64,000 nucleotides of DNA, from the NCBI RefSeq assembly GCF_000744815.1, contig NZ_JQMQ01000005.1, positions 6,343,801-6,407,800 of the forward strand, read 5' to 3'. The position numbers and the translations under genes were made by a program. Positions within the stretch are counted from its first letter, which is position 1. Each line of letters begins with the position of its first letter. Below the pieces are notes generated by a model. The model saw only the letters and a list, made by a program, of their open reading frames with translations. It had not been told where the DNA came from and made no database searches. This DNA comes from Phaeacidiphilus oryzae TH49 (lineage in GTDB: Bacteria; Actinomycetota; Actinomycetes; Streptomycetales; Streptomycetaceae). Positions 23,374 through 26,816 of the stretch are shown in pieces.

Positions 23374-24870
23374 TCAGCGGAGGCCCTCCCACACCGTCCG
23401 CTCCTCGGGGCGCGGGTCGTCCAGCACCTCGGAGGCGAGGTCGAACCGCATGGTGGCGCGGCGGCCCGGGTCGTAGGCGGGCCAGCCGGGGTCGCCGGTG
23501 GCGGCGAAGGACACCCAGGCGGAGTGCATCGCGTCGGCCACCGGCTGCGGCGGCGCCTCGCCGAGCAGCGGGGTGAAGCCCGGGTCGTCCAGGTTGTCGA
23601 AGACGAAGGCGATCTCCGAGGCGTGGCAGGCGCCGAGCCGCCCGCCGAACGTCGGCGGCCGCCAGGCGAACTCGTAGACGAAGGTGGCGCCCTGACGGGT
23701 CCGCGCATGCGCCTCGGCCAGGCGGATCGCGGGGACGCGGTAGAACCAGTCGGTGCCGACGGCCGCCAGCAGGTCGCCGTACGAGGCCTCCGGGCGGCTC
23801 TTGGCGTAGACGGCGAGGGCGGTGTCCGGGTCCAGCCCGTAGCCGGCCGCGCGCGCCCGCAGCAGCGGTTCGGTGACCGCGTCGATCAGGCCGGGGGGCA
23901 CCAGGAAGAAGCGGAACTCCTCCGCGTTGCTGCCGACCAGCAGGTCGATCCCGGCCGCGCTGCCGTCCGCGATCGCCTCCAGCGGCGGCCGGGGCAGGGT
24001 GCGGCCGTCCACCACCGACTCGAAGGGCATGATGTTCCGGGCGGCCTCGCCCCAGCGGGCGGGATCGGGGTCGGCGGAGATCTCCGCCCTCAGCCGCTGC
24101 CCGGCCTCGACCAGCCGCTCGACCGGGACGCCGGCCAGCGCGGTCCGGTCGGCCGGAACGCCGAGCACCTCGGCGAGCCGACGGCCGACCAGCCGGGCGC
24201 TGTCCGTGCTCAGGGTGTGCTGGGCGGCGCCGCTCTGCAGGGCCGCGCGGTGGAAGAGCCCCTCGGCGGCGGGCATGGCGAGCAGCGCCCCGATGCCCAT
24301 CGCCCCGGCCGACTCGCCGAAGACGGTGACGTTGCCGGGGTCTCCGCCGAAGTCCGCGATGTTGTCGCGGACCCACTCCAGGGCGGCGATCTGGTCCAGC
24401 AGCCCGAGGTTGGCGCGGTCCTCGCCGCCGAGGTGGAGGAAGCCGTCCGCGCCCAGCCGGTAGTTGACCCCGACGCACACCACCCCGTCCCGGGCGAACC
24501 GCGAACCGTCGTACCCGGCCACGGAGTTGGAGCCGTTGGCGAAGGCGCCGCCGTGCAGCCAGACCATCACCGGCAGCCGGGGGCCGGCGCCCGGTTCGGG
24601 GGTCCAGACGTTGAGGTTGAGGCAGTCCTCGCCGGCGATGAAGTTCTCCGGGATCAGGCGGTCGAAGGGGGCGGCGTAGGGCGCCTTGGGGGCCGTCGGG
24701 CCGTGCTCGACCGCCTCCCGCACCCCCGTCCAGGGGGCGACCGGGCGGGGCGGCAGGAAGCGGCGCTCGCCGAACGGCGGGGCGGCGTACGGCAGGCCGA
24801 GGAAGGCGGCGCCGTGCGCGCCGCGCAGGCCGCGTACCGCTCCCGCGCGGGTGCGGACGATCGGGTTCAT
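23374..24870 (-). CDS. Type-B carboxylesterase (cytoplasmic)
   Basis: This is a 498-aa carboxylesterase/para-nitrobenzyl-esterase-like alpha/beta hydrolase without a signal peptide, so intracellular. Family features: RGLRGAHGAAFLGLPYAAPP at the N-terminus, EDCLNLNVWTPE, oxyanion loop VMVWLHGGAFANGS, nucleophile elbow VTVFGESAGAMG, acidic residue in VGSNAEEFRFF and catalytic His in GACHASEIAFVFDN. ATG 24870 is preceded by GGAGC. It lies 56 bases downstream of a TetR gene on the same strand, so the two are probably co-transcribed from the 25.6-kb promoter. It may hydrolyse esters, possibly oligomers released by the divergent secreted depolymerase (inference). Confidence 0.93.
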   Translation of the reverse strand: MNPIVRTRAGAVRGLRGAHGAAFLGLPYAAPPFGERRFLPPRPVAPWTGVREAVEHGPTAPKAPYAAPFDRLIPENFIAGEDCLNLNVWTPEPGAGPRLPVMVWLHGGAFANGSNSVAGYDGSRFARDGVVCVGVNYRLGADGFLHLGGEDRANLGLLDQIAALEWVRDNIADFGGDPGNVTVFGESAGAMGIGALLAMPAAEGLFHRAALQSGAAQHTLSTDSARLVGRRLAEVLGVPADRTALAGVPVERLVEAGQRLRAEISADPDPARWGEAARNIMPFESVVDGRTLPRPPLEAIADGSAAGIDLLVGSNAEEFRFFLVPPGLIDAVTEPLLRARAAGYGLDPDTALAVYAKSRPEASYGDLLAAVGTDWFYRVPAIRLAEAHARTRQGATFVYEFAWRPPTFGGRLGACHASEIAFVFDNLDDPGFTPLLGEAPPQPVADAMHSAWVSFAATGDPGWPAYDPGRRATMRFDLASEVLDDPRPEERTVWEGLR

Positions 24871-24926
24871 GGGGCGGCTCCAGGGGATGGCGGGGTGCTC
24901 GGGTCCGCGGTGCGGCCGGGTACCGG

Positions 24927-25571
24927 TCAGCGGTAGACGCCGACCACGCGGAGGGCGTACTGGGCGTAGGAGTTGGCGACCTGTTCGCGGGTGAAGGCCT
25001 GGTCGGGGCCGAACCAGTGGGCCACCCGCAGGCCCATCGAACCGATCGCGGTGGCGGCCAGCAGGACGTCCGGCAGGTCGAACTCGCCGGCGGTCACCCC
25101 CTCCTCCAGGACGTCGAGGAACATCCGCCGGGAGTCCTTGCGCAACTCCAGGGCGGGGGCGGCCAGTTCGGGGGAGAGGCAGTGCAGCTCGCCGTTGGTG
25201 ACCACGGCCAGCAGGGGGTGGTCGGCGTGCACCAGGACATGCGCCCGCACCAGCGCGGCCAGCCGGGCGGCGGCCGTCGGACGGGCGGTGGCCAGGGCCT
25301 CGGCGAGCCGGGCCCTGGTCTCCTCGTGGCCGATCCGGACCAGCGCCGCCAGGATGTGCTCCTTGGACGGGTAATGGGTGTACAGCGTCGCCGAGTTGAT
25401 CCCGGCCGCGGCGGCGATCCGCCGGATCGACCCGGCAGCGAAGCCGATGTCGGCGAACACCCCGAGCGCCGCCTCCAGCACCCTCCCGCGCGTACCGGGC
25501 GGGGTCACCCCGTCCGGCAGCACCGGGGCGACGGCCGTCAGCCGGCGCGGCTCCCAACCGGGATCCTCCAC
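24927..25571 (-). CDS. TetR-family repressor of the esterase/depolymerase island
   Basis: This is a 214-aa TetR regulator. The N-terminal DNA-binding domain (RGRVLEAALGVFADIGFAAG, IRRIAAAAGINSATLYTHYPSKEHILAALV) is intact, and the C-terminal ligand domain (LLAATAIGSMGLRVAHWFGP, YAQYALRVVGVY) resembles the mycobacterial/streptomycete lipid-linked type. The start GTG 25571 has AAGGA eight bases upstream. Its own -10 region is followed by a perfect 16-bp palindrome, and a 14/16 copy sits downstream of the divergent depolymerase promoter. It therefore probably represses itself plus the carboxylesterase on one side and the PHA depolymerase on the other. The inducer is unknown; a hydroxyacid or acyl ester breakdown product is the simplest guess. 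Confidence 0.9.
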   Translation of the reverse strand: MEDPGWEPRRLTAVAPVLPDGVTPPGTRGRVLEAALGVFADIGFAAGSIRRIAAAAGINSATLYTHYPSKEHILAALVRIGHEETRARLAEALATARPTAAARLAALVRAHVLVHADHPLLAVVTNGELHCLSPELAAPALELRKDSRRMFLDVLEEGVTAGEFDLPDVLLAATAIGSMGLRVAHWFGPDQAFTREQVANSYAQYALRVVGVYR

Positions 25572-25592
25572 CTGTGGGTTCCTTCCGGGCAG

Positions 25593-25608
25593 CCAATCGA
25601 TCGATTGG
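25593..25608. promoter_or_regulatory. TetR operator 1 (perfect 16-bp palindrome)
   Basis: CCAATCGATCGATTGG lies three bases downstream of the proposed leftward -10 element. It would cover the transcription start of the tetR-carboxylesterase operon. Confidence 0.75.
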
Positions 25609-25611
25609 GCC

Positions 25612-25640
25612 AGCCTTGGCCGCCGAGCGCCCGCTGTCAA
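25612..25640 (-). promoter_or_regulatory. Leftward promoter of the tetR-carboxylesterase operon
   Basis: Minus-strand TTGACA (25640-25635) is followed, after exactly 17 bases, by AAGGCT (25617-25612). The -35 is a perfect housekeeping-sigma match; the -10 is a fair match for a streptomycete promoter. Confidence 0.55.
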
Positions 25641-25663
25641 GGACCGGGGCGCTGCGAGCACCG

Positions 25664-25692
25664 TTGACATGGCTCCGTCGGGGGCCGATGGT
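25664..25692 (+). promoter_or_regulatory. Rightward promoter of the PHA depolymerase gene
   Basis: Perfect TTGACA (25664-25669), a 17-base spacer and GATGGT (25687-25692). Operator 2 begins 21 bases after the -10, in the early transcribed region. Confidence 0.55.
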
Positions 25693-25713
25693 GGCTCAGC
25701 ACCCATGCGGAAA

Positions 25714-25729
25714 CCGATCGAACGATTGG
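25714..25729. promoter_or_regulatory. TetR operator 2
   Basis: CCGATCGAACGATTGG matches operator 1 at 14 of 16 positions. It lies between the rightward promoter and the depolymerase start, where bound repressor would block transcription. Confidence 0.7.
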
Positions 25730-25766
25730 CCCGGAGGATTCCCCGCCACCCAACGGAGTGTGTCCC

Positions 25767-26816
25767 ATGAGGTTTCGCCCGTCCCGCCTCCTGTCCGGGA
25801 GGGCCAGAGCCCTGGCCGTCACCGGCACCGCCGCCCTCGCGGCCGCCGCGCTGTCGGCGCTCGGCCTGGTCGTCCCGGCCGCCCCGGCGCAGGCCGCGTC
25901 CGCCCCGCCCCTGCCGCGACTCGACATCACCGGCGACTACGTCACCGGCGTCTCCTCCGGCGGCTTCATGGCCACCCAGCTCCAGGTCGCCTACTCGGCC
26001 ACCTTCAAGGGGGCCGGGATCGTCGCCGCCGGACCCTACGACTGCGGGCAGGGCACCGTCGTCGGCTTCGACGCCTGCGATCTGGGCATCGGCCTCGGCA
26101 CCCTGGAACAGCAGGCCGCCACCTGGTCGCAGCAGGGCCGCATCGACCCCGTCGCCGACCTTCAGGGGAAGCCGGTGTACACCTACCACGGCACTGCCGA
26201 CCCCGTGGTGAACTCGGCGGTCTCGGACGCCGGTGTGAGCTTCTACCAGCACTTCGGCGCCCGTACCACGTACCACGACACCGACCCCGCCGGGCACTCC
26301 TGGGTCACCCCGTACGGTCCGGTGGCCTGCTCGCTGACCTCGGCACCGTTCATGAACGACTGCGGGGACGACCCCGAGGGCGAGATGCTGCGCAGCTGGC
26401 TCGGCACCGTCGAGGCGCCCGACACCGGTGCCCCGCGGGGGACGCTGAGCCGGTTCGACCAGAACGGCTACGCTCCCGGCGGCTCGGCGCCCGCGCTCAG
26501 CATGGACACCACCGGGCAGGTCTACATTTCGCCGTCCTGCGCCGCCGGCGCGGCCTGCAAGCTGGTGGTCGCGCTGCACGGCTGCCTGTCCGGCCAGTAC
26601 CTGCTGGGCGACGAGTTCGCCCGGCTCGGCAACCTCGACACCTACGCCGACACCAACGACCTGGTGGTGCTGTATCCGCAGGCCATCGCGAGCACCCTGC
26701 CCTACAACCCGCAGGGCTGCTGGGACTGGTTCGGCTACGACGGCGCGGACTTCGCCCTGAAGAGCGCCCCGCAGATGCGTGCCATCACCGCGATGGTGCA
26801 CGCCCTCGGCGGCTGA
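25767..26816 (+). CDS. Secreted PHA (short-chain polyhydroxyalkanoate) depolymerase, type 2 catalytic domain
   Basis: This is an extracellular esterase of the PHB depolymerase family, 349 aa, with a Sec signal peptide (ARALAVTGTAALAAAALSAL, cleavage near AQAAS, residue ~45). The lipase box is close to the mature N-terminus as TGVSSGGFMA (G-x-S-x-G). This is the mark of the type 2 catalytic domain, where the nucleophile precedes the oxyanion region. The oxyanion HGC occurs late in VVALHGCLSGQYL, and catalytic Asp/His candidates are in YHGTADPVV and PAGHSWVTP. There is no substrate-binding or linker domain, so it may act on amorphous or oligomeric polyester. ATG 25767 is preferred over GTG 25758 (GGAG nine bases upstream). 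It is preceded by a TetR-controlled promoter. Its 3' end overlaps the end of a degraded integrase by 32 bases. Confidence 0.92.
   Translation: MRFRPSRLLSGRARALAVTGTAALAAAALSALGLVVPAAPAQAASAPPLPRLDITGDYVTGVSSGGFMATQLQVAYSATFKGAGIVAAGPYDCGQGTVVGFDACDLGIGLGTLEQQAATWSQQGRIDPVADLQGKPVYTYHGTADPVVNSAVSDAGVSFYQHFGARTTYHDTDPAGHSWVTPYGPVACSLTSAPFMNDCGDDPEGEMLRSWLGTVEAPDTGAPRGTLSRFDQNGYAPGGSAPALSMDTTGQVYISPSCAAGAACKLVVALHGCLSGQYLLGDEFARLGNLDTYADTNDLVVLYPQAIASTLPYNPQGCWDWFGYDGADFALKSAPQMRAITAMVHALGG

Follow-up and report, generated by a model that had tools for sequence, protein, structure and literature searches.

The TetR-family proteins FadR (Bacillus subtilis), AibR and KstR2 are acyl-CoA-responsive repressors with a role in catabolism. 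PhaD of Pseudomonas, another member of the family, regulates polyhydroxyalkanoate (PHA) genes including the depolymerase gene; according to the excerpted text of the source it activates a synthase-depolymerase cluster, i.e., one of synthesis and turnover, and a metabolite of beta-oxidation has been suggested as its effector (PMC7204398). In Burkholderia vietnamiensis the TetR/AcrR regulator P4G95_00865 is needed for extracellular degradation of medium-chain-length PHA: its loss abolishes activity, the enzyme concerned is a lipase whose locus tag is far removed, and the excerpt describes no operator (PMC13101487). The locus considered here, located in a 64,000-nucleotide stretch (the window) of Phaeacidiphilus oryzae TH49 (contig NZ_JQMQ01000005.1, positions 6,343,801 to 6,407,800), consists of a tetR gene followed by a carboxylesterase gene, and of a divergent gene, phaZ, for a type-2 PHA depolymerase. 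It is likely to be a dedicated, autoregulated switch for the utilisation of PHA or polyhydroxybutyrate (PHB), in which the TetR would repress the extracellular depolymerase and sense a product of polymer degradation. Its features are, in window coordinates:

24870-23374, (-) strand (23374..24870): type-B carboxylesterase, 498 amino acids, PF00135 at 323.9 bits, 56 bases 3' of tetR on the same strand
25571-24927, (-) strand (24927..25571): tetR, TetR-family regulator, GTG start, 214 amino acids, PF00440 at 50.6 bits and PF17932 at 86.1 bits
25593-25608, no strand assigned: predicted operator 1, CCAATCGATCGATTGG, a perfect palindrome (8/8 pairs) at the predicted tetR transcription start
25617-25612, (-) strand: putative tetR promoter, -10 AAGGCT, N17 from its -35
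25640-25635, (-) strand: putative tetR promoter, -35 TTGACA
25664-25669, (+) strand: phaZ promoter, -35 TTGACA
25687-25692, (+) strand: phaZ promoter, -10 GATGGT, N17 spacer
25714-25729, no strand assigned: predicted operator 2, CCGATCGAACGATTGG, 6/8 pairs, roughly at +15 to +30 relative to the predicted phaZ start
25767-26816, (+) strand: phaZ, type-2 short-chain-length PHA depolymerase, 349 amino acids, NF050059 (e_dPHAscl_type2) at 299.8 bits (cut-off 280) over residues 53-347

This system resembles PhaD in linking a TetR-family protein with a PHA depolymerase gene, and is set apart from it, by description, by the extracellular type of the depolymerase, the divergent layout and the repressor-type positions of its sites; none of the 17 NCBIfam models matched is named PhaD, and a scan of five window genes (Pfam, NCBIfam) gave no synthase or phasin. 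With FadR, AibR and KstR2, which are among its sequence and structural neighbours, the window TetR shares the fold and the domain layout; these regulators have other targets, and the match to the FadR equivalog model NF053878 (57.1 bits) lies far below its cut-off of 200. Among the literature matches listed, all from open-licence sources, none describes a TetR that acts through operators on an extracellular PHA depolymerase gene, and such control is absent from the excerpts of a review on soil PHA (PMC13372988) and of the paper on the Streptomyces ascomycinicus depolymerase (PMC3741128). The control of these enzymes in soil actinobacteria seems little described; the literature matches listed deal with enzymes and not with control at the operator level.

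Both Pfam scores of the regulator exceed their cut-offs, which gives a TetR_N helix-turn-helix and a ligand-binding C domain, and a structure comparison places its fold among TetR structures. The depolymerase has a start resembling a signal peptide (judged by eye), and is thus probably secreted. Over nearly its whole length it aligns (E 1.9e-42) with the solved PHB depolymerase 2d80, also a single-domain type-2 enzyme; this fungal protein, presumably from P. funiculosum, brings no regulatory information. S63, D145 and H177 of PhaZ fall on a Ser, an Asp and a His of 2d80 that we take to be its catalytic triad. As the NF050059 match covers almost everything past the signal-like start, there is no space for a separate substrate-binding domain, so that a soluble or amorphous polymer may be the substrate. 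The carboxylesterase, without a signal peptide as judged by eye, may hydrolyse PHA oligomers.

A preliminary description of this DNA had arranged tetR, the downstream esterase and the divergent phaZ around a common gap of 195 bp with two outward-facing TTGACA boxes, and the coordinates (the gap spans 25572-25766) and family scores bear it out. Two of its details need qualifying. The 16-bp palindromes do stand one after each promoter and are identical at 14 of 16 positions, the second being imperfect; the -35 boxes that it called good are real, and both -10 boxes (GATGGT for phaZ, AAGGCT for tetR) are weak. With up to three mismatches allowed, operators 1 and 2 are the sole two matches within the window, while shuffled sequences gave a mean of 0.07 matches and never two (0/100 shuffles).

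Orthologues of the TetR were sought in 394 genomes of the family Streptomycetaceae and in contigs of named genomes; once four genomes seen twice had been removed, 21 loci including the window were obtained. In the 394-genome search a score gap separates 273.5 from 130.7 bits, and the 13 genomes above it were therefore counted as carriers of an orthologue. The regulators of the 20 further loci are 59-75% identical to that of the window. Those from named organisms belong to Streptacidiphilus (Streptomycetaceae), Catellatospora (Micromonosporaceae), Catelliglobosispora and Amycolatopsis. A tree built with all orthologues but those of the Catellatospora loci L049 and L054 (19 of 21), with eight paralogues and with a 44% identical protein of genome G625 unites the Streptomycetaceae and Catellatospora/Catelliglobosispora TetRs in one group with a support of 0.948 and leaves the paralogues outside; the deeper position of G625 and Amycolatopsis is weak (0.58). 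The orthologue is rare, as a Catellatospora TetR query matched (E <= 1e-45) in three of 394 genomes of the class: the window genome, G127 and, at 45%, G625. A search of the own genus found it in the window genome alone. The nearest relatives in the family genomes, paralogues of 36-45% identity, form a separate clade with other neighbours, and H131 and other orthologue-invariant residues differ in all eight of those compared. An acyl-CoA (coenzyme A) dehydrogenase, named by eye, lies near the paralogue in seven of the nine loci inspected, of 17 fetched; no literature was found under the name AcdR for this group.

The conservation of the palindromes, on which the preliminary description had made its proposal depend, is found throughout: similar sites lie beside tetR in all 20 other loci, and a site within one mismatch of CCRAYCRAWCGATYGG is present upstream of tetR in 21 of 21, a descriptive count, since the pattern was built from the orthologous sites themselves. 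At up to three mismatches CCRAYCRAWCGATYGG gives 44 sites, at least two per locus except in Catelliglobosispora, some of the three-mismatch sites being possibly due to chance; the 39 sites read in the + direction share five invariant columns. The sites are also nearly exclusive to the locus. A scan with CCAAYCRATCGATYGG at up to one mismatch took in the genomes behind 17 of the 21 loci (all but four Catellatospora genomes) and placed 66 of 70 rows at the tetR locus, each strand and each overlapping register being counted as a row of its own; with the backward pattern there were none. In the window genome, at up to three mismatches, the forward pattern has 14 matches vs. five for the backward one. 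The motif occurs at up to one mismatch in 104 of the 394 family genomes; thus a lone loose match means little, and it is the pair beside this TetR that marks the locus. Eight identical copies of CCAACCGATCGATTGC, perhaps a dispersed repeat, were seen scattered over genome G044 among the matches listed.

The position of the sites relative to the phaZ promoter is conserved as well. All 18 loci with a depolymerase, one of them with a truncated gene, keep the phaZ -35 TTGACA, followed after N17 by GATGGT (8), CATAGT (5), GATAGT (1) or single variants (3), and in one locus by GATGGT after N18. In 16 of the 18 there is an operator-like site next to this -35 or overlapping it, and in every one another site starts 41-53 nucleotides after the start of the -35, spanning about +6 to +34 relative to the expected phaZ start. 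Sites at the -35 and just past the predicted start are positions that fit repression. On the tetR side no TTGAC was found within 300 bases upstream of the start in any of the 20 other loci; in L050 a GTCAA is present solely at the tetR start codon. The spacer CGTA is kept in many loci, where the opposite strand reads TACGGT, a possible tetR -10; if it serves as such, the tetR and phaZ promoters would overlap. The window deviates from this pattern: no site abuts its phaZ -35, one site lies where tetR transcription is predicted to begin, and tetR has a putative -35 of its own. Back-to-back TTGACA boxes with one operator after each were seen in the window genome and in none of the 20 other loci, so that its layout, with an operator 1 and a tetR -35 differing from those of the relatives, is by this comparison a derived one. 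L017, with three sites, and L045, with one site closer to tetR, another downstream and, at the -35, a degraded remnant, look like steps towards it.

The gene content is less constant. The divergent gene encodes an intact type-2 depolymerase in 11 of the 21 loci, a truncated one in G049 and a type-1 depolymerase in six Catellatospora loci (79-91% identical to the enzyme of L047; family scores were checked for L047 and L050); in the other three no such gene was found in the 5-6 kb retrieved. The type-1 and type-2 enzymes differ in the order of their catalytic parts, which argues for replacement of the depolymerase rather than drift. The order in type 1 is taken up in the excerpted paper on the S. 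ascomycinicus enzyme, itself of type 1 (PMC3741128). On the tetR side the partner is a carboxylesterase in ten loci, an alpha/beta-hydrolase in seven, an acyl-CoA dehydrogenase in three and none in Amycolatopsis; the esterase homologue thus lies 3' of tetR in nine of the 20 other loci, one copy having an internal gap. In the six type-1 Catellatospora loci an alpha/beta-hydrolase takes the place of the esterase, and among its several matches is a weak one to an intracellular PHA depolymerase (36.2 bits, cut-off 300). The composition thus varies, with two types of depolymerase and three kinds of partner. The divergent side of G182 reads acyl-CoA ligase, phaZ, 3-hydroxybutyrate dehydrogenase and MHS symporter; frames are broken in this assembly and family scores refer to pieces, under whole-protein cut-offs, such as 206.8 bits with TIGR01963 for a 132-residue C-terminal piece of the dehydrogenase (cut-off 307). 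A gene next to the Amycolatopsis tetR encodes a relative of this ligase, with 76% and 59% identity in two pieces.

A type-2 depolymerase is present in 11 of the 13 family genomes with the TetR orthologue vs. 22 of the 381 without it (Fisher p = 1.8e-11, uncorrected for relatedness). In ten of these 11 phaZ directly adjoins tetR, and in G182 the ligase gene stands between them. The three loci in which no phaZ was found differ in their sites. G166 has degraded sites and TCGACA in place of TTGACA; Catelliglobosispora keeps the TTGACA and one site, on the tetR side; Amycolatopsis keeps the TTGACA and two sites with one or two mismatches; the latter two have no recognisable -10. In G049 (L059, 5382-5774) phaZ apparently retains no more than its C-terminal third, fused close to the start, and both operator-like sites are intact. 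With sites in all 21 loci, nearly exclusive to them in the 17 genomes scanned, placed at the phaZ promoter, and degraded or single in the phaZ-less G166 and Catelliglobosispora, the comparison strongly supports the prediction, made in the preliminary description, that a single TetR governs both directions.

The switch would work as follows. A TetR dimer would bind the two operators between tetR and phaZ. As long as there is no polymer, operator 1, at the tetR start, would damp tetR and the co-directional esterase gene, and operator 2, just past the phaZ start, would block the secreted depolymerase. The low level of depolymerase would free 3-hydroxyalkanoate monomers or oligomers, which would enter the cell to be cleaved by the esterase and then activated. 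One of the products (a hydroxyacyl-, acetoacetyl- or similar acyl-CoA being the most likely) would bind TetR, and the liganded protein would leave the operators, inducing both arms. Secretion, transcription starts, binding, repression, the ligand and the action of the esterase on oligomers are here predictions; observed directly are the genes present and the sites, with the way these are conserved, placed and nearly restricted to the locus.

The ligand is suggested by structure and neighbourhood. The closest solved structures to the AlphaFold model of the window TetR, a confident one (mean predicted local distance difference test score, pLDDT, 90.3) are the Rhodococcus TetR protein 3him and PfmR, followed by DarR, FadR, KstR2 and AibR. 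Entry titles give stearoyl-CoA for FadR, isovaleryl-CoA for AibR and nucleotides for DarR, and the KstR2 structure was presumably solved with a CoA thioester. Because of the CoA-binding fold relatives, and because a ligase or an acyl-CoA dehydrogenase is encoded near tetR in some loci, the monomer's CoA thioester may serve as a first guess, at about even odds against free 3-hydroxybutyrate or oligomers.

Several points weigh against the switch as described. No depolymerase was found within the 5-6 kb fetched around tetR in G166, Catelliglobosispora and Amycolatopsis. Of the 33 family genomes with a type-2 depolymerase, 22 are without this TetR, which is thus not a general control of such enzymes. 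Where the operator has its axis of symmetry is ambiguous by 2 bp: two overlapping palindromes fit many of the orthologous sites, and the window operators fit only the palindrome first described. A CoA-type ligand rests on distant fold relatives of 22-31% identity; the nucleotide-binding DarR ranks above FadR and AibR, and the top match, 3him, names no ligand.

Of the other explanations, the one that survives best, though we regard it as unlikely, is that the switch serves another polyester (cutin, polylactic acid-like polymers or mixed esters) and not PHB or PHA. It draws on the Amycolatopsis orthologue, which lies near a cutinase and a ligase, on the lack of a separate substrate-binding domain in PhaZ, and on G625, where the 44% homologue has as its neighbour a hydrolase that weakly matches BHET (terephthalate ester) hydrolase (41.6 bits, cut-off 520). 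PHA is favoured instead by the 17 loci with an intact PHA depolymerase of one type or the other, and by the 3-hydroxybutyrate dehydrogenase in the gene row of G182. The G625 pair (L095, 4163-4963), whose hydrolase appears by eye to be secreted, is possibly a related polyester switch.

It is improbable that the TetR controls itself and the adjacent esterase alone, as a pair for ester or xenobiotic detoxification, the depolymerase being a bystander that shares the gap. Three of the 21 loci do have tetR with no depolymerase nearby (G166 with an esterase, Catelliglobosispora with an alpha/beta-hydrolase, Amycolatopsis with neither), but in the 18 that carry one the spacing of a site to the phaZ promoter is kept without exception; where phaZ is missing, Catelliglobosispora retains just the tetR-side site and both sites of G166 are degraded; and where an acyl-CoA dehydrogenase is present, in three loci of Streptacidiphilus, it is the esterase and not the depolymerase that is missing. 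Activation of phaZ by the TetR carries a comparably small probability. Its precedent is PhaD, an activator of pha genes including phaZ as far as the excerpt goes, with a beta-oxidation metabolite as suggested effector (PMC7204398); against it stand a site downstream of the expected phaZ start in 18/18 loci, another at the -35 in 16/18, and a phaZ -35 that is the consensus TTGACA. That the sites are bound by another regulator, the TetR lying beside them by chance, is very improbable, as they follow the TetR orthologue and not the depolymerase: of the family genomes that have a type-2 depolymerase and no such TetR, 22 in number, 15 are covered by the matches listed (up to two mismatches), none of which is near the depolymerase gene.

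Elsewhere in the window genome a single other site, CCAACTGATCGATCGG, with one mismatch, stands upstream of the crotonyl-CoA carboxylase/reductase gene ccr and near that for 3-hydroxybutyryl-CoA dehydrogenase. An extension of the regulon to ccr was rejected as unsupported: at up to two mismatches the 700 bases upstream of ccr held a site in 0 of 11 other TetR-bearing genomes (G166 and the named genomes left out). It is also worth mentioning that this ccr region (L100, G000:C5:1698300-1702300) carries, beside the near-operator site, a perfect palindrome, CGACGATCGATCGTCG, upstream of ccr; the similar GTTCGATCGATCATCG occurs in three other genomes and may be the site of a TetR neighbouring ccr. 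For the remaining off-locus rows (G036, G191 and G053), no link to the genes at or around them is visible by eye. Next to the window esterase there is a LIP-family secretory lipase (23214-21772, (-) strand; PF03583, 277.6 bits), which was rejected as a fourth member of the switch, having a homologue in 0 of 20 orthologous loci and no operator-type site nearby. On the strand opposite to phaZ, an open reading frame of 331 codons (27780-26785, (-) strand), without a Pfam or NCBIfam match at E 0.001, overlaps its 3' end.

The regulon is real, conserved and of an ordinary kind, a local TetR divergon, and apparently undescribed: the preliminary description knew of no regulon of this exact composition, and none is among the literature matches listed, the composition itself varying between loci. 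Its conserved sites make the regulation testable by a simple gel shift and might be built into a biosensor for bioplastic breakdown, and the TetR with its sites is a marker for PHA-degradation loci with unrecognised enzymes, whatever adjoins the TetR. Somewhat short of an even chance, in our estimate, is the broader view that this is an old cassette for extracellular polyester use, in which the TetR and its paired operators remained a unit in at least two families of actinobacteria as the depolymerase type was replaced and the partner changed, the polymer being read via the CoA thioester of its monomer; if true, it would provide a ready-made biosensor of PHA degradation.

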